Part shown: piece by piece, positions 1-17,853 of the stretch | How the letters are laid out: each line of letters begins with the position of its first letter | Numbering within the stretch: the stretch's first letter is position 1 | Source of the DNA: a virus | Length of the DNA: 21,746 nt | Direction: 5' to 3' (one strand) | IMG/VR virus record: IMGVR_UViG_3300010388_000286 | Span: 1-21,746 of that record | Position numbers and translations under genes: made by a program | The notes under the pieces: model-generated | What the model was told of the DNA's origin: nothing | The model's database searches: none | Seen by the model: only the letters and a program-made list of their open reading frames with translations

Positions 1-2550
1 ACCAGTAGTTGCAATTGTGTTGAATACGTTTGCAGTAGTAACACCGGTTGATGTTGCAATAGTAACAATACCGGCTGAGCCGTTACTATTAATTGTTAAT
101 GTACTATTTGCGCTAGTTGCTCCAATATTAACACTTGCACCTGCTGCACCTATATTAAATGTTCCAGTAACACTAGTAAAAATATTAGCAATTCCAGTAG
201 TTACATCAGTAGTTAAATTTATAGTTCCTGCAGGAGTGCTAGATAATTTTAATGTATTTCCAGAAACTGCGCCGCCAAGTGTTGTTGTAAGTACAGATGA
301 AGTATTAGTGCCAATAGTAACACCTGTAGTAGTTGAGCCACCGACAGTAATTGATGACGCAGAACCTAATACAATACTTGGTGTTAATACTGCAATATTG
401 TTGATATAATAGTTTAACGAAGCGCCTGCAATATTAATACTGTCGGATAAATTCCAATAACCAGTGTTTGTAGAACCAACAGATCCAATTGCTGACCATA
501 AAATTGTTTTATTTGATGCGCCTAATAATGTTATACCACCGCCGCTAGCAGTAGTATCAGTTGCATTACCAATTACTATAGTTGCACCGGTTGCTGTTCC
601 TGTACCAGTAAGTACAGCACTTAACGTAATTTGAGTTGCGCTGTCAATTGTTAACACAGTTGTACTTGCAGGAAGTGTTACCGATGCGCTTCCTGTAAGA
701 CTTGTTACAGAAGAACCAACAATAATGTTAACGGTACTTGATAAATTTGTAACTACCGCTGATCCAGCTGACACATTCCCAGTTGGAGAAACTGTAGCAA
801 CTGATCCTAGTTCAATATTTTTGTCATCAACTGTTAGTGTTGATGAATTCATAGTTGTAGTAATACCGTTAACTGTTAAATTTCCAGTAATAATAGTATC
901 TGACCCAACATATAATTTTTTAGCAATAGCAGCTCCGCCTGCAACCATTAATGCACCTACTGTGCTTGAGGATGCATCAGTTGTTGAACTAACAGTAGCA
1001 GTAGATGTCACTGTTAACGTGTCACCAACATATAATTTTTTAGCAATAGCAGCTCCGCCTGCGACGGTTAATGCGCCGCCTGTAGTGCTGTTAGTTGCAT
1101 CAGTTGTTGAACTAATAGTTGTAGTAGCGCCAACTGTTAAATCAGTGCCAATATTTACTTTTTTAGCAATAGCAGCACCACCAACAACCATTAATGCACC
1201 TGCTGTACTTGAGGATGCATCAGTTGTTGAACTAACAGTAGCAGTAGATGTTACTGTCAACGTATCACCAATATAAACTTTTTTAGCAATAGCAGCACCG
1301 CCTGCAACAGTTAATGCGCCGCCTGTAGTGCTGTTAGTTGCATCAGTTGTTGAACTAATAGTTGTAGTAGCGCCAACTGTTAAATCAGTGCCAATATTTA
1401 CTTTTTTAGCAATAGCAGCACCACCAACAACCATTAATGCACCTGCTGTACTTGAGGATGCATCAGTTGTTGAACTAACAGTAGCAGTAGATGTTACTGT
1501 CAACGTATCACCAATATAAACTTTTTTAGCAATAGCAGCACCGCCTGCAACAGTTAATGCGCCGCCTGTAGTGCTGTTAGTTGCATCAGTTGTTGAACTA
1601 ATAGTTGTAGTAGCACCAACTGTTAAATCAGTACCAACATATAATTTTTTAGCAATAGCAGCACCACCAACAACTGTTAATGCTCCGCCAGTTGTACTGT
1701 TAGTTGCATCAGTTGTTGAACTAATAGTTGTAGTAGCACCAACTGTTAAATCAGTACCAACATATAATTTTTTAGCAATAGCAGCACCACCTGCAACCAT
1801 TAATGCACCTACTGTGCTTGATGATGCATCAGTTGCAGTTGGTATAGATAACGATCCATAAATTGTAGTTGCAGTAGTTGTACCGCTAGTGCCAAGTACA
1901 GTTGTATTTGAACCTAATCCAATTGCATTAGCACCAATTACAACTTCGTAAGTGTTACTAGTAGCTGACCCAATAGTTCCACTACCTACGTAAATGTTAT
2001 TTGATCCAGTAGTATTTGCAGTAGTGTGTACAGAATCGCCGTATCCTGCTCGATAACCTAATGCAGTATTATTAGTTCCGCTAGTGTTTGATTGTAATGC
2101 AGCAACACCGTAACTAGAATTATAACTTCCATCAACATTATTATACATTGTTGATGTACCAAATGCTGCATTATCACTACCAGTAGTAGTAAATACTAAT
2201 GAGCCGTAACCAAACGCATTATTGTTTACAGCAGTTGATTTTCCTAACGACTGTGAACCAACTGCAGTATTATAATTACCGATTATATTTGCATGTAACG
2301 CATATGGTCCTATTGCAACATTATCATGGCCGTCGGTATTTACATCGAGGGTGTTTGGTCCAACTGCAACATTATAAGTACCGCTTACATTTGATTTAAG
2401 CGATTTCCAACCAACTGCTACGTTTGCTCCAGCAGCTAACGATATATTACCTGCACCTCTACCTACAGTAATACCGTTAATCGTAAGATCTTTAGTAAAA
2501 TAAAGTATTTTATGGGTAGCGTCTTTTAAAGACGGTAGATTTGGTCGCAT
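1..2550 (-). CDS. Fibre/adhesin protein with YadA-like head repeats and GGAAIAK tandem repeats (C-terminus outside window)
   Basis: The minus-strand frame opens at an ATG (2550-2548) and has no stop down to base 1, so at least 850 residues are present and the C-terminus is missing. The ATG shares one base with the TAA stop of the 139-aa gene, suggesting translational coupling. Residues 1-30 form a lead-in ending DLTINGITVG. Residues about 43-170 carry six or so 22-24-residue repeats of the form GxxNxAxGxxAL, the pattern of trimeric YadA-type head repeats. Residues about 240-550 hold eight 40/41-residue units containing GGAAIAKK and YVG. A module with NLTVNG then VDDKNIELG follows, shared with the 2172-aa protein, then a Thr/Ser/Gly-rich beta region. 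The likely role is a trimeric virion fibre or adhesin. No catalytic motif or intramolecular chaperone domain is visible, though one could lie beyond the edge. The structural call is strong; the exact place in the virion is unknown. Confidence 0.85.
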   Translation of the reverse strand, partial: MRPNLPSLKDATHKILYFTKDLTINGITVGRGAGNISLAAGANVAVGWKSLKSNVSGTYNVAVGPNTLDVNTDGHDNVAIGPYALHANIIGNYNTAVGSQSLGKSTAVNNNAFGYGSLVFTTTGSDNAAFGTSTMYNNVDGSYNSSYGVAALQSNTSGTNNTALGYRAGYGDSVHTTANTTGSNNIYVGSGTIGSATSNTYEVVIGANAIGLGSNTTVLGTSGTTTATTIYGSLSIPTATDASSSTVGALMVAGGAAIAKKLYVGTDLTVGATTTISSTTDATNSTTGGALTVVGGAAIAKKLYVGTDLTVGATTTISSTTDATNSTTGGALTVAGGAAIAKKVYIGDTLTVTSTATVSSTTDASSSTAGALMVVGGAAIAKKVNIGTDLTVGATTTISSTTDATNSTTGGALTVAGGAAIAKKVYIGDTLTVTSTATVSSTTDASSSTAGALMVVGGAAIAKKVNIGTDLTVGATTTISSTTDATNSTTGGALTVAGGAAIAKKLYVGDTLTVTSTATVSSTTDASSSTVGALMVAGGAAIAKKLYVGSDTIITGNLTVNGITTTMNSSTLTVDDKNIELGSVATVSPTGNVSAGSAVVTNLSSTVNIIVGSSVTSLTGSASVTLPASTTVLTIDSATQITLSAVLTGTGTATGATIVIGNATDTTASGGGITLLGASNKTILWSAIGSVGSTNTGYWNLSDSINIAGASLNYYINNIAVLTPSIVLGSASSITVGGSTTTGVTIGTNTSSVLTTTLGGAVSGNTLKLSSTPAGTINLTTDVTTGIANIFTSVTGTFNIGAAGASVNIGATSANSTLTINSNGSAGIVTIATSTGVTTANVFNTIATTG
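901..1833 (-). repeat. Eight-unit tandem repeat array (40/41 codons per unit) inside the fibre gene
   Basis: Translated on the minus strand, eight consecutive units start DASSST or DATNST, contain GGAAIAKK, and (except the last, partial unit) end SSTT. Two subtypes are seen: one with TDLTVGATTTI and one with DTLTVTSTATV. From the third unit onward they alternate, giving a dimer period of 81 codons (243 nt). The last unit runs into an NLTVNG/VDDKNIELG module. The repeats probably form a regular beta shaft. Confidence 0.92.
1067..1614. repeat. Perfect 243-nt-period tandem duplication (305 nt identical)
   Basis: Bases 1067-1371 are identical, including synonymous sites, to bases 1310-1614. The first differences appear at 1066/1309 on one side and 1372/1615 on the other. 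The period is 243 nt (81 codons), so the reading frame is kept. Identity at silent positions points to a recent duplication or ongoing homogenisation of the array. Confidence 0.95.
2041..2424 (-). repeat. YadA-like head-repeat segment of the fibre gene
   Basis: This stretch encodes about six degenerate 22-24-residue repeats with the spacing N-x-A-x-G-x-x-[AS]-L, for example NVAVGPNTL, NVAIGPYAL, NTAVGSQSL and NTALGYRAG. The pattern matches left-handed parallel beta-roll head repeats of trimeric adhesins. Repeats are degenerate at DNA level, unlike the downstream array. Confidence 0.75.
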
Positions 2551-2970: not shown

Positions 2971-5900
2971 TTATATTCCTGTGTATGCTAATCTGTATGC
3001 GTGTAATTGTGCAAGCGTATCAACTGGAGCACTTACCCATCCGGTGCCAGTTGACGTTAAAATATTCCCAGCTGCTCCAGGAGTAGTTAAACCTGTGCCG
3101 CCGTGTGACGCTGATATTGTGTTAGCCCAAGTCGGAATGCCTCCGCTTACTGAAAGAACAGTTCCGGCTGATCCAATTGCTAATTTTGTTAAAGTAGATG
3201 CGTCACTAGCATACAATATATCACCTGCAGTGTACGCCGAAGTTCCAGTTCCGCCTTTTGATATTGGTACTGCTTTATCTAAGTTATCAGGATTTAATAA
3301 GTATGTTGAATCAAGACCGTCAATTGACCCTGCATCAATAACACCTGATTTAATCAGTACCTGACCGGCACTTAAACTATCACCGGCACCTACTGAAAAT
3401 TGCAAGGTATTAAAACTTGCAACACCTAATGTTGAATAATTTCCAGTTCCGCCTGTCTTATTAACACTATTTATATCAACAATTAACTCACCATATTTAG
3501 CACTAGTCCCAGACCCAACAATTGATAATGCAGGATTAGTAGATTGAATACTAATTACTGCAGTTGACCATGTTGAATCACCTCGTAAAAACGTTTCACT
3601 ATTTGCAGCACCTGCCGACGCTAATCGAGAAGTAGGTAACACACCGGAAACAATGTTTGATGCATCAAGACTAGATGTTGATATTAAACCCCAACTTGTT
3701 TCATTACGACTACTAGTGTTTACAAATCCAATAATGTTAACACGATCGTGTAATACTGAACATGATCCCGAACCTTTCGATGTAATATTCACTGCAGTAA
3801 TAGTTGCGCCATTTATACTTATAATAGCGTCAGTACGGAATGAATGTAATGTAAATGAGTTTGCAGTAACTGACCCTACAAAAAATGTTGATCTATCAGC
3901 AACTCGTACACCGTTATTATAAAATAACGTTGGTCCTGCTAATGTAATTGCATCACCTGATACTAATCCGTGACCATTTACATATAATCGATCATTGTCT
4001 AAGTTAGCTGCATGAATTTTAAGATAATGCGCACCTGTAGAACTACCATTATTAAAACTAACTATATTGTTTAACGAGTAATCATGATGTAATTCAATTA
4101 CATCAGCTGAAATTCGTTTAATATAATATGATATCGATTGCAAACCACCAATTGGAATATTTACAGATGAATCGTATATGACAGGATCACCATTAGCAAA
4201 CCCGTGATTTACAATAGTTATTCGATTTAATGAATAGTCAACACCGCCACCGTTGCTAATTAAATCTGCATTAAACGCATACGCAGTTATTTCTGATAAT
4301 GTAATTGTATGAATACTACTTAAATTATCATTAATGAAATCTGGTGATCCTGCTGATCCAAAGAACGAACTACCTGAAATAAGATTAACATACAATCTAT
4401 TTTCAAAACTAAGTGCAGTAATACTAAACAAGCTACCTGTACCACCTAAGTACATGTTTAACGCAGTTAAAATATCGCCTGTTGTGTATCCCGTACCACC
4501 ACGTATTAAGTCAACTGTAGTTACTAATCCTAACGTAACTGTAATATTTGCATACGCACCTGATCCAGTGCCTGTTGACGAAACTAACGGAACATTAGTG
4601 TAAACACCTGACGTATAACCGCTGCCATTAATAATAGTAGAGTTATTAACTGATGTTAACACTCCATACCGTACTTCAGTTACTTCACCTTGCGAATGGT
4701 TGTTTACTGCAGTTACAATAGATCGAACTGTACCTGTAGTAGTAACTGGTGTTATGAAAGTTAATGTAGCAGATGTAGTTCCGGCAATTGATGTACTTTC
4801 TGGGAATGTTACAGTAAATGTCCTAGGATCAACTGACATATTAACTGCACTAATAACAGAACCTAACGGTAAACCTCCTCCAAACACATAATCGCCTACA
4901 TGAATAGTACCTGTTAAACTAGATTGTGGAATACTACCGGTTGTATTAAGTGACGAGGTTGCTGCATCAATTGTTCCAGTTACTGATGCGCTATATGCTG
5001 CATACGTAGTTGATGCTCCACTATTTGTATACATAAATCGTGTACTAGAAATAACAGTTGGATATGAAGTTCCATTATATTCAACATTAGTTGAAGTAGT
5101 TGCAACTTGAGAAACTGCAGTTAAATCGTGTACTTCATTAGTAGTAACATATACTACGTTATTAAATCGTAATATTGATGCAATCGAACAAATAGTGTAA
5201 GAATAAGTAATGCCAGTTGGTATAACTACATACTGACTTGCAGTTGATGATCTTAAAATATGGTTATCAGTAACCTTTGCTGTTGCACTAACTGATGAAC
5301 AATACACTGCAGTGTTTGTTGTACTTGGTGTTGCATCTCCTGCAATCGTTAACGTATGTAAAGCGTTAGTATCAAAAGATATTGCAAATGTTTCATATGT
5401 ACTAGCAACTAAAATATTAGTCGTATTAGTAACACTACCTTTTAAAATACCAGTTGCCCCTGAGGTTAATTGGACAATAGTTGCTCCGTCAGCTGCAGTA
5501 ATTGGTAAGTTTAAAGTTAACGTTACTGTTTGAAATTCTTCTGAACTTGAGTCACCTGCTAAAAAGTCAATTGCAGGAATGTTGTCAACTGCAGATAACC
5601 TTGACATGTACCCGTATGTTATAACAGACGATACTGCTCGTTGTGTTGGTATTAAATCGCTGTTAAGTTGACCTACTGAGTTCAATTGAACCATTGCGCC
5701 GGGGATCGCGTTTGTACTAACGCTCTTATCAATAAAGTTTCCAAGTCTGTCTTGTAAATAAGACCAAATTGCTAACTGTGTAGTAATATTGTTATCAGAT
5801 GCGCCGCCGACTTCGTTTTCACCTAAACCTGGATCGTTACTAATTGAGTTAATTTGGATATCACTAAACGACAATTTTAATACCGATAACTCACTTACTG

Positions 5901-8900
5901 TAACAGTGTTTTTGAAAACAATGTTACCGGTTCTGTTATATGCAGTAATAAAGTCACCGACTTTAAAGTCACCAAGTTCGTTAGTTCCTGATGAATAAAC
6001 TCGACCAGTTCCTTCTGCAACTTGTTCTGTTGCTACATCAGTTTGTCCTCCGTTTTCAGGTAATGCGTTATAGTCGATACCTGAACCTGAATACTCCCAA
6101 GTGTGACCAGATGAGTTAACAATACTTGGTCTATGGAAGAAAATCTTTTTGCCAGGTAATGAACTAATATTATCTAACGCGCCGCCGATTAATGTCGGAA
6201 CAACAGCAAATGTACCAGTATACAGATCGGATCGATTAACTATTGCGTTAACTGCAACACTAATAAGAGTTGACCCTGCTTTTGTAATAAGAGAAGAACT
6301 TGAGAATAAATTTCGTATTTCTGTACCGTTAACTGGAACTTTATCAATACTAACTATTAATGTATTAGGTGCAGTATATTTGTATACATACGCTCGGTTT
6401 GCACTGCCTGATGTTATACCTTCAATTGCTTGGCCAGCTGTAAATGTAAACGTATTTGAAGTTAATGTAAGAGTTTGATATTTGTTATGAGAATCTGATA
6501 ATGTGCCTACTACCATTTCATAATCATGTTTAACAAACCCATGAATGCCTGTTCCGATTGTATTAATTTTAACTATAATTGCTAACGAGTTATCTTGTGC
6601 TAATTCAAACTGTGTGTCAGATACATAAACAATATAATAATCACTACCTGTAAATAATCCACCAAGTGGAATATTACCGTTACTTGTATATGTTACTGAT
6701 GTACCGTTTGTAAAACCGTGAGGGGTGCTAGTAGTAAACGTGTTTGGTATTGCATCAGCCGACGTAGTAACCGCAGTAGCAGCATCAAATTGTACAGACA
6801 AATAACTTGCAGATTGAACTTTAAAATTAGAAGTTTCATCATTACCATTATAGTTTATATTAATGTATTCAGTTACAAACCCCGCAATCGCAGCTTTATC
6901 TACCACTAGCAAATTATATTGCGATACTAGATTAGTGTTACTTACCCATGATGTGTTTGGAGATATAACTATTGGTTCTAACCCCGAGTTAATTGATGTA
7001 TAAATTTCTTGAATTCTGTCTTTGGCAAAACTAACTGATTCAGTAGATCCGGCTTGACCGTCAATCTGTTGAGTAGCAGTATTACCGGTTGATCTTGTCC
7101 AACTAGAAACATTATCATCATTTGTAATAATAAATTCAATGATATTTTTTAAACGAGTTTGTGCAGCTAACGCTGCAGTCTTTTGGTTAGCCGGTTCAAC
7201 AAATGTTCCAAAGGTGTAATACATTCTAGAAACAACAATAGTTTCTAAATTTCCACCAGTTAATAAATCGTATTGTAATGCATCAACAATGTATCCTACA
7301 TCTCGACTGCACTGGTTACGTTGTACAAGAGTTAAGCTATTCCACAATGTTGAATATGCAGAACTTACATACGATGTAATTTCAGTTTGTAAGAATGATC
7401 TATTTAAGGCAACAAGTCTAGCTGCGTTTGCAAATCCAGGTGCTAAGTTTGTAGGAGTTGGCATAATTGCAGTAGGCAGCGGTGAAATAAGTTTAGTAGT
7501 TGGATCAATAGAGCCGTAAATAATTAAGTTAATAATAATATCCATATTACTACTAACTGATGCAACTGCAACAGGGTCTCCACCGATATTGTTAACTAAA
7601 TAGGTTTTTAAATAATTAAATGCATCTAAAGTAGCAGTTTTTTGAACGCCTAATATCAACGATGCTTGTGCTGAAAAATAAGTAATTGCAGCAGTTCGTG
7701 ATCTAAAATTAGATCCAAACATCATATCGTAGCCTATTGCATCAATAATAAATCCAATATCACGCTGGCATGTTTCTACTTTATACACAAGTTCATTGTT
7801 ATTGCGGATTCGAATTACAAATTGTTCAACTGGTCCATTTGGTCTTAATAAACCAATTGCAGTAAGATTGCTTATGCTTCCAACTGCTCCAACTTTAGCA
7901 ATTACACCTCTGTCATACATGTACGCAACTGGAGAATAACCAGACGATCTTAATGCGTACTTACCAAAGTTAGTAGCCGAGTTAGTAATAGATGCGTATC
8001 CACCACTTTGTGTATAAACACCGTTTAACAAAAAAAGTTGGAAACATGATACTAACTGAACATACGCACCGTTAATTATGCGCCATCCTGTACCGCCAAA
8101 GCTAATCATTGTAAACGCACTAGCAATCATTGATTTACCTTGAACAGGTGCAATACCTTCAGGATCAACTTCAACCTCAACAATGTTTTTTGGTACGTTT
8201 GGTGATGAAACTTTGTTGCCGTCTACTAACGCGCCATTACCGCCTAAGAAGCTAAGTATTGAAACAGTTTGTATATATGGCGATAATGTCATTATTGATT
8301 TTGATGTTGGTAGGTAAGTATACCCAACTCTAGAAGTTGTAGTATCCTCAACATCGTCAAATGCAATTGCATAGTCCCATGTAAACGACGGGACACCTGC
8401 ATTGTTTAATGCATCTCTAAAAGTAAAACCTGTTAAGTAACACCCGTTTCTAACTCTAAAAAAATCAACGTTTGGATTAAGTGGTCGAACAATACATGAT
8501 CTTAAACTATCGCCAGTAATAGTAACATTGTCAGGTATAATTATAGGATTGTCTTCTTTATAATCACCTGGAGCTAAATTAATAGCAATTCGCACATTGT
8601 TAACAACTTTAGCAGATGTATACACCATTGCAGATGCTAATTGACATGCTCTTTTAATAGTTTTAACTGGACTAGACACACCGTTGTTTGCGTCATCGCC
8701 TTTTTCTGCAGATACAAATATTCGATTACCGCCTTGATCGGAATCAATAAAATACATTTTCCCAACTTCGTTAACTGATAGCAGTTGTCCAATATCGCCT
8801 AACCCATCGGGTAATTCTAAATTATAGCTGCTTTCAATATTTGTTGGAGCTTTAATAGTTATAGTATTTGTACCATTTGACGATAATTCTGATAATGTAA

Positions 8901-9489
8901 TACTACCATTATTTTGAACATCTAATGATGTAAATTTACCAGAGCTGGCAGTTGTTGAACCGATTGGCGTATTTTGAATACTGCTAGCAATAAACGGTAC
9001 GTTACTAATCCATGCACCGGTATTAATATCCCATAATAATGTTTTATCACCGTCAGTGCCGCCTTTTAACGTAATGCCACCGGTATTTGCAGTTATATTA
9101 GTTGCGCCAAATATAGAGCCTAACTCGATATTTTTGTCATCAACTGATAGTGTTGTTGAATTAATAGTAGTAGTAACACCATTTACTGTTAAATTTCCAT
9201 ACACTGCAAGGTCATGTTTAATAACAGTTGCCCCGGATGTATTTCCTATGTTAATTGCAGTGGCTGCACCGGCAATGTTTAATGTTTCTGCCGCACCTGC
9301 AAAATTTACAGTAGTTGCAGCATTGTTGATTAAATCAAAACTAGTACTATTAGTTGTTAAAGATGTTTCAATATTTGGACTAGTTGATAAAACAAGATTG
9401 CCTGATCCAGTTGAAGTTGATGTACCTGTGCCGCCAACTTCAACTGCTAGTATTCCACTTTTTAGTAAATTCGAAAGGGTAATTGACAT
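2971..9489 (-). CDS. Giant mosaic virion structural protein with beta-helix domain, 2172 aa
   Basis: The start is the ATG at 9489 with an AAAGGA site 7 nt before it and a late-promoter octamer at 9523-9516. Modules in order: SGGTG-like and VDDKNIELG module (about 15-155); LELPDG linker (225-235); probable right-handed beta-helix (about 256-530) opening with FVSAEKGDDANNG and PVKTIKRA, the usual entry motif of such folds, then PGDY, IIIPDNVTITG and a long stacked-strand tract; two CxRDxGxIxDAxxYD segments (C574, C727); HGF-NG modules (924, 1762); HTWEYSGSGIDYNALPENGG (about 1129-1148), a motif I recall from marine T4-like structural proteins; two GSGYT-type segments (1622-1672); and a C-terminal KGGTGTSAYTAGDILYAS repeat. 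It is likely a large baseplate- or fibre-linked protein. The beta-helix could bind or cleave polysaccharide, but I see no confirmable active site. It is followed one base later by the 139-aa gene. Confidence 0.85.
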   Translation of the reverse strand: MSITLSNLLKSGILAVEVGGTGTSTSTGSGNLVLSTSPNIETSLTTNSTSFDLINNAATTVNFAGAAETLNIAGAATAINIGNTSGATVIKHDLAVYGNLTVNGVTTTINSTTLSVDDKNIELGSIFGATNITANTGGITLKGGTDGDKTLLWDINTGAWISNVPFIASSIQNTPIGSTTASSGKFTSLDVQNNGSITLSELSSNGTNTITIKAPTNIESSYNLELPDGLGDIGQLLSVNEVGKMYFIDSDQGGNRIFVSAEKGDDANNGVSSPVKTIKRACQLASAMVYTSAKVVNNVRIAINLAPGDYKEDNPIIIPDNVTITGDSLRSCIVRPLNPNVDFFRVRNGCYLTGFTFRDALNNAGVPSFTWDYAIAFDDVEDTTTSRVGYTYLPTSKSIMTLSPYIQTVSILSFLGGNGALVDGNKVSSPNVPKNIVEVEVDPEGIAPVQGKSMIASAFTMISFGGTGWRIINGAYVQLVSCFQLFLLNGVYTQSGGYASITNSATNFGKYALRSSGYSPVAYMYDRGVIAKVGAVGSISNLTAIGLLRPNGPVEQFVIRIRNNNELVYKVETCQRDIGFIIDAIGYDMMFGSNFRSRTAAITYFSAQASLILGVQKTATLDAFNYLKTYLVNNIGGDPVAVASVSSNMDIIINLIIYGSIDPTTKLISPLPTAIMPTPTNLAPGFANAARLVALNRSFLQTEITSYVSSAYSTLWNSLTLVQRNQCSRDVGYIVDALQYDLLTGGNLETIVVSRMYYTFGTFVEPANQKTAALAAQTRLKNIIEFIITNDDNVSSWTRSTGNTATQQIDGQAGSTESVSFAKDRIQEIYTSINSGLEPIVISPNTSWVSNTNLVSQYNLLVVDKAAIAGFVTEYININYNGNDETSNFKVQSASYLSVQFDAATAVTTSADAIPNTFTTSTPHGFTNGTSVTYTSNGNIPLGGLFTGSDYYIVYVSDTQFELAQDNSLAIIVKINTIGTGIHGFVKHDYEMVVGTLSDSHNKYQTLTLTSNTFTFTAGQAIEGITSGSANRAYVYKYTAPNTLIVSIDKVPVNGTEIRNLFSSSSLITKAGSTLISVAVNAIVNRSDLYTGTFAVVPTLIGGALDNISSLPGKKIFFHRPSIVNSSGHTWEYSGSGIDYNALPENGGQTDVATEQVAEGTGRVYSSGTNELGDFKVGDFITAYNRTGNIVFKNTVTVSELSVLKLSFSDIQINSISNDPGLGENEVGGASDNNITTQLAIWSYLQDRLGNFIDKSVSTNAIPGAMVQLNSVGQLNSDLIPTQRAVSSVITYGYMSRLSAVDNIPAIDFLAGDSSSEEFQTVTLTLNLPITAADGATIVQLTSGATGILKGSVTNTTNILVASTYETFAISFDTNALHTLTIAGDATPSTTNTAVYCSSVSATAKVTDNHILRSSTASQYVVIPTGITYSYTICSIASILRFNNVVYVTTNEVHDLTAVSQVATTSTNVEYNGTSYPTVISSTRFMYTNSGASTTYAAYSASVTGTIDAATSSLNTTGSIPQSSLTGTIHVGDYVFGGGLPLGSVISAVNMSVDPRTFTVTFPESTSIAGTTSATLTFITPVTTTGTVRSIVTAVNNHSQGEVTEVRYGVLTSVNNSTIINGSGYTSGVYTNVPLVSSTGTGSGAYANITVTLGLVTTVDLIRGGTGYTTGDILTALNMYLGGTGSLFSITALSFENRLYVNLISGSSFFGSAGSPDFINDNLSSIHTITLSEITAYAFNADLISNGGGVDYSLNRITIVNHGFANGDPVIYDSSVNIPIGGLQSISYYIKRISADVIELHHDYSLNNIVSFNNGSSTGAHYLKIHAANLDNDRLYVNGHGLVSGDAITLAGPTLFYNNGVRVADRSTFFVGSVTANSFTLHSFRTDAIISINGATITAVNITSKGSGSCSVLHDRVNIIGFVNTSSRNETSWGLISTSSLDASNIVSGVLPTSRLASAGAANSETFLRGDSTWSTAVISIQSTNPALSIVGSGTSAKYGELIVDINSVNKTGGTGNYSTLGVASFNTLQFSVGAGDSLSAGQVLIKSGVIDAGSIDGLDSTYLLNPDNLDKAVPISKGGTGTSAYTAGDILYASDASTLTKLAIGSAGTVLSVSGGIPTWANTISASHGGTGLTTPGAAGNILTSTGTGWVSAPVDTLAQLHAYRLAYTGI

Positions 9490-16686: not shown

Positions 16687-17853
16687 TTAGCTAAATTTAA
16701 CGTTGTTGTAGCTAATGCCTACTTTGCCTAAATAGTCAGCCGCGTTACCTAAAGATGACGCAGTGTTTGACAATTCAACATAACCATAACGTGTCATGAA
16801 AGAAACAACTGGTTCAAATGTTGATGGATCTAATACAACACCAGATGACATCAATGGAATGTAAGGGCAGTAAAACGCAGGAGCGTCTGATTCTGAACCA
16901 CCTTTGTAACCAATTAAGATTGAAGTGTTGTCTGTAGCATAGCTGTTTACATACACTTTCAATGAATTGTTCAATGTACCAACAAATTTAGTATTAGTTG
17001 GAGCTTCGAAAGTACCTTCAGTAGTACGAGCAAAAGCTGAAGTTGTTGCTGATTGCAAAATTGTTAATGCAAATGGAGAAACAACAGCATAGTTACCAGC
17101 ACCACGACGTGTACGTTGTGCAATCAAGTTGCTTACACGGTTGATTTGGATTGCTAATGCAGCGTGTTCGTCACCTACGAAAGTAGCTGTACCTGATACA
17201 GCAGCTTGGTCATAAGTTAAAACTTCTGTTCCAGCCAAGTTTAACAATGAAGCGATAATTTCTTGGTCAATCTCAGCAGTAATTTCTTGAGCCAAAGCAG
17301 CCATAATTTCTGCTTCAACGTCAATACCTTGTTGTGATTGAGCATCTTGAGCAGCTTCAAATGTCCAGCGAGCTGATAACTTACGAGTTTTCGCTTCAAC
17401 TGTTTGTTTCAAGATTTGAATGCTCATTTTTTTGCCTGCTTGTCCTTCTAAAGTTGCAGTTGAAGCAGCTTTTGCAGGTGAACTGTCGTTACCTGAATAG
17501 CTTTCTGCAATTTTGAATGGACTTAATGCTTCTTCGCCTGCTACTGTAGCAGATGAATTATCAGCATAACGTACACGCAATGTATGGATTTGGCCAACAG
17601 GACCAGTCATCGGTTGTACACCAACTAACTCGTTAGCAATAACGGTTGGCATTACACGACGGATTACAGGTAAAATTACACGGTTTAAAGTTGAAATGTT
17701 ACCAGCAGATGTTGCACCAGCAGTAGGAGATTCCATCAAATACTTACGTGTATTTTCAAGTGTTACGCCCATTACTGATTTTTTTGTGCCTTGCAAACCT
17801 TCTAACAATGCTTGCTTTGTTTCTGCCCAACGGCCATTAAGTAGTTCTGACAT
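16687..17853 (-). CDS. 23: Major capsid protein, T4 gp23-like, 388 aa
   Basis: The ATG at 17853 has a TAGGAG site 7 nt upstream. It lies after the scaffold gene as in T4. Recognisable gp23 features in order are VILPVIRRVMPTVIANELVGVQPM (about 58-80), GPVGQIHTLRVRY, the VEAKTRKLSARWTFEAAQDAQSQQGIDVEAE block with TAEIDQEI after it (about 152-200), RVSNLIAQRTRRGAGNYAVVSP, LKVYVNSYATDNTSILIGYKG, APAFYCPYIPL and PVVSFMTRYGYVE. The protein forms the hexameric shell and T4 gp23 is matured by gp21 at an (L/I)xE site. LME at residues 39-41 is a suitable cleavage site here. At 388 aa it is much shorter than T4 gp23 (521 aa), mainly because the region between the GPVGQ and AKTRKL blocks is reduced. It is followed by a strong terminator. 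Confidence 0.95.
   Translation of the reverse strand: MSELLNGRWAETKQALLEGLQGTKKSVMGVTLENTRKYLMESPTAGATSAGNISTLNRVILPVIRRVMPTVIANELVGVQPMTGPVGQIHTLRVRYADNSSATVAGEEALSPFKIAESYSGNDSSPAKAASTATLEGQAGKKMSIQILKQTVEAKTRKLSARWTFEAAQDAQSQQGIDVEAEIMAALAQEITAEIDQEIIASLLNLAGTEVLTYDQAAVSGTATFVGDEHAALAIQINRVSNLIAQRTRRGAGNYAVVSPFALTILQSATTSAFARTTEGTFEAPTNTKFVGTLNNSLKVYVNSYATDNTSILIGYKGGSESDAPAFYCPYIPLMSSGVVLDPSTFEPVVSFMTRYGYVELSNTASSLGNAADYLGKVGISYNNVKFS

Follow-up and report, generated by a model that had tools for sequence, protein, structure and literature searches.

In a giant tail-fibre gene of an uncultivated virus we find two tandem helical domains that are predicted, with high confidence, to have the phycobiliprotein (bilin-binding globin) fold. 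The gene lies in IMG/VR record IMGVR_UViG_3300010388_000286, a 21.7-kb virus fragment analysed over its whole length of 21,746 nucleotides (the window). It is an unbroken open reading frame (ORF) that begins with ATG on the complement of 2971..9489 and encodes 2172 amino acids (aa), intact as an earlier reading made from the letters alone (the sequence-only reading) had described it. The identity of the helical segments, residues 566-882, had been missed by that reading. The product is very probably a giant fibre or spike of a jumbo T4-like phage, with a beta-helix shaft into which a pair of domains homologous to phycobiliproteins is inserted as an exposed module. We computed the ORF, its family, the predicted beta-helix and phycobiliprotein fold, the sequence homology, the conservation of the motif and the positions of the inserted cassette.

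The helical segments had been noted as duplicated, and residues 574-631 and 727-784 indeed align with a score of 98, whereas 500 shuffles reach no more than 50. An AlphaFold2 (AF2) model of residues 564-882 has a predicted local distance difference test (pLDDT) value of 94.1 and a predicted template modelling (pTM) score of 0.92. For this model Foldseek assigns phycobiliproteins a probability of 1.00 and ranks bacterial globin-coupled sensors below them. With VIA-align the best 50 rows are all phycobiliproteins or derivatives, at Z scores of 14.5-17.0 that exceed the warning level for helical bundles (Z about 13), and the top row covers 137 residues at 1.9 Å (Z 17.0).

To this predicted fold corresponds a similarity in sequence. 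A first Pfam scan of the whole protein matched residues 570-654 to PF00502 (Phycobilisome) with an E value of 0.0076 (16.7 bits), and the helical segment scanned apart reached 24.6 bits for a cut-off of 22.2; among relatives the score is 27.6 bits in DSL-LC03, an independent case, 20.5 in P-HM1 and 15 in S-SCSM2R. When single repeats were scanned, 13 out of 54 matched PF00502 at E up to 0.1 and no other Pfam family matched more than one. The profile of the 54 repeats, compared to all PDB sequences at E up to 10, gave 38 matches; 36 belong to phycobiliproteins, the best at E 0.0022, and another to the engineered protein Smurfp. The hhalign comparison of 323 non-redundant repeats with 75 phycocyanin subunits yielded a probability of 95 and a score of 48.8 over 101 columns, while the maximum was 14.1 in 60 column shuffles and the score 11.6 for the reversed profile. 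Searched against 16 whole cyanobacterial genomes, the repeat profile had its top-scoring matches in phycobiliprotein-sized ORFs, and seven of the eight loci fetched hold phycobiliproteins.

Both repeats contain a sequence that aligns with the bilin-attachment motif Cys-x-Arg-Asp (CxRD), and in the second the motif Cys occupies position seven of its helix (model residue 164, helix 158-181). Across the 323 non-redundant repeats the Cys is conserved in 93 %, the Arg in 86 % and the Asp in 97 %, with all three present in 271, and the Asp is kept in every one of the 303 repeats that have the Cys. Phycobiliproteins and two bilin biosynthesis-associated globins (BBAGs), BBAG-1/3, have their chromophore-binding Cys within the motif CXRD (Rockwell et al., PMC10151467); BBAG-1/3 bind bilins without lyases, and BBAG-2 is without CXRD (PMC10151467). 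The argument that CxRD is lost as a unit and hence functional is weakened, because the Cys-less repeats are degenerate at Tyr69, Ala65 and Thr85 as well. In marine contigs L041, L035, L036, L038 and L043 many repeats keep the Cys and the last Asp with the Arg replaced, often reading C-x-D-D. The conserved motif suggests that the ancestral, and possibly the present, ligand is a linear tetrapyrrole.

The window repeats thus share with phycobiliproteins (PF00502: phycocyanin, phycoerythrin, allophycocyanin) a globin-like fold, a sequence profile and CxRD in the same helix register. They differ in standing in tandem inside a 2172-aa tail fibre, whereas a phycobilisome subunit is a separate light-harvesting protein of about 160-180 aa, and any bilin on them is putative. 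Being embedded in the fibre, they are therefore homologous domains and not a phycobilisome subunit. The BBAGs, compared with the window repeats by description only, are likewise phycobiliprotein paralogues outside light harvesting, with CXRD in BBAG-1/3, but they are free proteins whose genes adjoin those for haem oxygenase and pre-PcyA (PMC10151467).

The shaft was modelled over residues 186-1330 as an AF2 monomer, built on an alignment of the window protein and its IMG/VR relatives. Beta strands occupy residues about 254-560 and 898-1130 of the model, and its core (255-430) has a pLDDT of mostly 84-94 per 10-residue block. VIA-align places the tailspike of cyanophage Pam1 (7eea) first, with a Z score of 19.4 over 233 residues, followed by alginate epimerases, lyases and tailspikes (Z 16-18.7), and Foldseek ranks pectin methylesterases first. 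By structure comparison the predicted model thus has the right-handed, pectin-lyase-like beta-helix fold. The range aligned with 7eea, model 69..999 or residues 254..1184, spans the helical pair, and both flanks of the helical region therefore appear to be one beta-helix. The sequence-only reading had placed a beta-helix at about residues 256-530; the fold is supported, whereas the extent needs correction, the helix being longer and interrupted (about 254-565 and 884-1184). As a single-sequence query, the whole window protein had no match in the PDB at E up to 1.

A right-handed beta-helix is common to the window fibre, the Pam1 tailspike and other beta-helix tailspikes. The window helix differs in carrying a phycobiliprotein-fold insert, and a catalytic site was not identified in the window fibre. 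We know of no phycobiliprotein-fold insert in the Pam1 tailspike or other beta-helix tailspikes.

The PHROG_5342 "tail fiber protein" profile matches the window protein in six stretches (E 1.5e-178), which bears out the fibre modules seen by the sequence-only reading, and the family annotation supports a fibre function with high confidence. Homologues are found in 169 phage records, nearly all with cyanophage names, and those of Syn9 and Syn33 are annotated as structural proteins; full-length relatives of the window fibre (L008-L012) are 55-64 % identical to it. S-PM2, Syn1, P-HM1, DSL-LC03 and S-SCSM2R each encode their homologue as a single protein, 3161-3676 aa long. The earlier statement that marine T4-like phages hold these modules in separate proteins is contradicted by all of them, and the surprise at a combined giant was unfounded because a single giant protein is the usual form in cyanophages. 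That reading was correct in seeing a tail fibre or spike, its right-handed beta-helix and the duplication of its helical segments.

With the Kyanoviridae giant fibre (PHROG_5342; S-PM2p091, Syn1_101, PHM1_097, DSL-LC03 WJZ47903) the window protein shares a single giant ORF and a layout of beta-helix segments followed by the conserved segment E, whose first part overlaps the second part of the beta-helix, with helical repeats inserted. The place of insertion differs, the cassette following residue 565 in the window fibre, which has two repeats and 2172 aa compared to 3.2-3.7 thousand. In gene terms it is an unremarkable representative of a giant-fibre family that was already known.

Four segment profiles (N, C, D and E) covering the beta-helix served to map where the cassette is placed. 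In the window, as in its close relatives, it follows C (~565). S-PM2, Syn1 and P-HM1 have it where N ends and C begins (~390), and in DSL-LC03 and S-SCSM2R it interrupts N itself, after residue ~286, so that one beta-helix accommodates the cassette at three places and in 2 to 5 or more copies. Occurring at one of three sites with a variable copy number, the cassette therefore behaves as a movable side module, and this pattern would suit a lateral, exposed one.

We propose that the gene encodes a giant tail fibre or spike of a jumbo T4-like phage, whose shaft would contain one right-handed beta-helix that, by analogy with tailspikes, would form a trimer. A tandem pair of domains, homologues of phycobiliproteins and of related globins that bind bilins, would be inserted in the beta-helix and project from the shaft, where they are presumably exposed. 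The most likely role of this exposed cassette would be adhesion or the binding of a ligand by the fibre.

The virus itself is, by its major capsid gene region gp23 (16687-17853), a jumbo T4-like phage and not a typical cyanophage: this gp23 shares 66-70 % identity with its counterparts in jumbo T4-like phages, among them Vibrio phage 2.275, Sinorhizobium phage Phosso and 121Q, and is nearest to jumbo phages of heterotrophs. In this the window virus is unlike the Kyanoviridae carriers of the fibre. The consensus repeat, compared to 50,697 phage records, gave 372 matches, all cyanophage-named except one "Marine" record, and repeats were not detected in T4, 121Q, HTVC008M, P-SSP7, S-TIM5 and Vibrio phage 2.275. 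An iterated profile finds the repeat in every mapped cyanophage giant, with 626 copies in the fetched loci and up to 20 per protein. The 399.8-kb contig G016 holds one 6682-aa frame (G016:C1:104045-122824) with dozens of copies. The ORF at 7983 of L024 encodes a 4263-aa protein with at least 20 phycobiliprotein-fold repeats in one frame. Carriers of the repeats include many T4-like cyanophages as well as jumbo T4-like phages from the environment, to whose clade the window belongs. The notion that they occur only in cyanophages is true of the named isolates (372 records), but the environment differs as far as can be told: the window gp23 is of the jumbo type and psbA was found in none of 33 repeat-bearing IMG/VR contigs searched, which are fragments, versus five of five reference cyanophages.

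Several observations weigh against the fibre interpretation proposed above. Both structures are AF2 models of monomers, and the beta-helix model has a mean pLDDT of only 68.6 over its 1145 residues. Pfam scores of single repeats are weak (the 13 out of 54 given above), window repeat 2 alone is without a PF00502 match, and repeat 1 seems to be without the helix that precedes the motif. For none of the homologues could a specific peptide from virions be assigned. S-CREM2 has a readable virion proteome; repeats are absent from those of its proteins that were tested, namely the long tail fibre, with 286 peptides, and other large tail and baseplate proteins, and S-CREM2 was discounted as virion evidence.

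One alternative explanation is chance convergence, in which an unrelated helical bundle would have acquired a globin-like arrangement together with CxRD. Pairwise identity in the structural alignments is indeed low (9-17 %), but sequence profile, structure and motif register concur independently, nearly all PDB matches of the profile are phycobiliproteins, and the similarity outlasts masking of CxRD only (hhalign score 27.9 compared to the shuffled maximum of 14.1), leaving chance convergence very improbable. Another would have the beta-helix act as an enzyme, a polysaccharide depolymerase, and the helical pair as a mere spacer. The top fold matches, being tailspikes, alginate lyases and epimerases and pectin methylesterases, would agree with this; the beta-helix fold alone is, however, also common to non-enzymes, and large inserts interrupt the helix at differing places among relatives. 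Several conserved acidic residues (D/E) are present in the beta-helix, yet no catalytic pair could be placed. We consider such an enzyme unlikely, and the depolymerase activity suggested by the sequence-only reading is unsupported, the likeness to lyases, epimerases and tailspikes being one of fold only.

A further alternative is a holo-fibre: the motif Cys may covalently carry a linear tetrapyrrole, made by the host or by phage haem oxygenase and PcyX/PebS, so that the virion would be pigmented and the bilin would serve binding, light sensing, stability or photoprotection. The conservation of CxRD with its Asp kept wherever the Cys is present, and the lyase-free binding of bilins by BBAG-1/3 (PMC10151467), are in favour of it. 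The haem oxygenase gene overlaps a PcyX-like bilin reductase gene in the repeat-bearing, psbA-less contigs G016 (L235:1688-2909) and G021 (L236:546-1761), and all ten PcyX contigs of at least 128 kb carry repeats. The purpose of the phage bilin enzymes has been described as a mystery (PMC3037559) and is still called enigmatic, binding to a BBAG being named as one possibility in the accessible part of a later article, which proposes no virion acceptor (PMC11480375).

On the other side, the Arg is often replaced in cyanophage repeats (54 % in that subset), and the co-variation test is weakened by Cys-less repeats losing Tyr69 and other residues too. The pair of haem oxygenase and reductase genes in G016 and G021 is absent from most repeat-bearing contigs (the window is itself a fragment), and many repeat-bearing phages are without bilin reductases. 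Repeats were not detected in Mosig (haem oxygenase and PcyX), P-SSM2 (PebS) and S-PRM1 (PebS). The figure of ten out of ten is confounded, as repeats are also present in four of four large contigs that were selected by gp23 and have no reductase, and G016 was itself found via repeats, with the reductase query drawn from a repeat-bearing contig. We therefore rejected the idea that a bilin reductase predicts repeats and claim no association, given this baseline, a clade common to at least six of the ten and the three counter-examples; any link between bilin genes and repeats is suggestive only and not one-to-one. In Pelagibacter phage Mosig (L405), whose host is non-photosynthetic, the haem oxygenase and bilin reductase genes adjoin neck genes. 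A bilin bound to the window fibre is accordingly a tentative proposal that we regard as doubtful. Slightly less probable still is the general form, in which phage tail fibres bear covalent linear tetrapyrroles, in some phages through their own haem oxygenase and PcyX/PebS, and bilin genes serve a pigmented virion and not host photosynthesis.

Table 1. Positions of the giant-fibre gene and its parts in the window
Feature	Residues	Position	Strand	Basis
Giant tail-fibre gene, 2172 aa		2971..9489	minus	ORF, PHROG_5342 match, full-length relatives
N-terminal fibre modules	1-185	8935..9489	minus	GGTGT and VDDKNIELGS motifs
Predicted beta-helix, first part	~254-565	7795..8730	minus	Structure model, Z 19.4 versus 7eea
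Predicted phycobiliprotein-fold repeat 1	~566-672	7474..7794	minus	Profile, model; pre-motif helix not recognised
CQRD, repeat 1, aligned with bilin-attachment Cys-x-Arg-Asp	574-577	7759..7770	minus	
Predicted phycobiliprotein-fold repeat 2	~680-834	6988..7452	minus	Z 17.0, 1.9 Å over 137 residues, model range 117..271
CSRD, repeat 2, same motif	727-730	7300..7311	minus	
Predicted beta-helix, second part, includes HGF module	~884-1184	5938..6840	minus	Structure model, segment profiles
Conserved segment E	1109-1317	5539..6165	minus	Best conserved piece among cyanophage homologues
Second copies of HGF-type module	1722-1984	3538..4326	minus	Segment profiles

The gene order of the window is of T4 type, with gp20, small genes, gp21, gp22, gp23 and the run of fibre genes in this order, all on the minus strand. 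The VDDKNIELGS motif recurs in the adjacent ORF 1..2550. This neighbouring fibre ORF, on the minus strand and truncated by the contig end, contains near-identical repeats of the type TISSTTDATNSTTGGALTVAGGAAIAKKLYVG. Of the two HGF modules reported earlier, the recurrence stands (residues 883-1120 and 1722-1835), with the HGF string itself at three sites (924, 983 and 1762); the "GSGYT repeats" come down to one GSGYT (1622) and one GTGYT (1665), for which the plural was generous.

Domains with the phycobiliprotein fold occur in light-harvesting antennae and as free bilin-binding globins. In the open-access literature we found no report of phycobiliprotein-like tail fibres, of a phycobilisome domain in phage tails or of a bilin-binding tail fibre, and the identity of such domains in tail fibres appears to be unreported. 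Some public-database entries may have been tagged automatically by Pfam, because DSL-LC03 exceeds the PF00502 cut-off. The finding would give a structural identity to a domain of which one phage proteome can contain up to dozens of copies, and which is now annotated only as tail fibre or hypothetical protein. Tandem fibre modules that have kept a pigment-attachment motif are a concrete candidate acceptor for phage-made bilins, and they may thereby offer a testable answer to the question of why some phages carry pigment-making genes.

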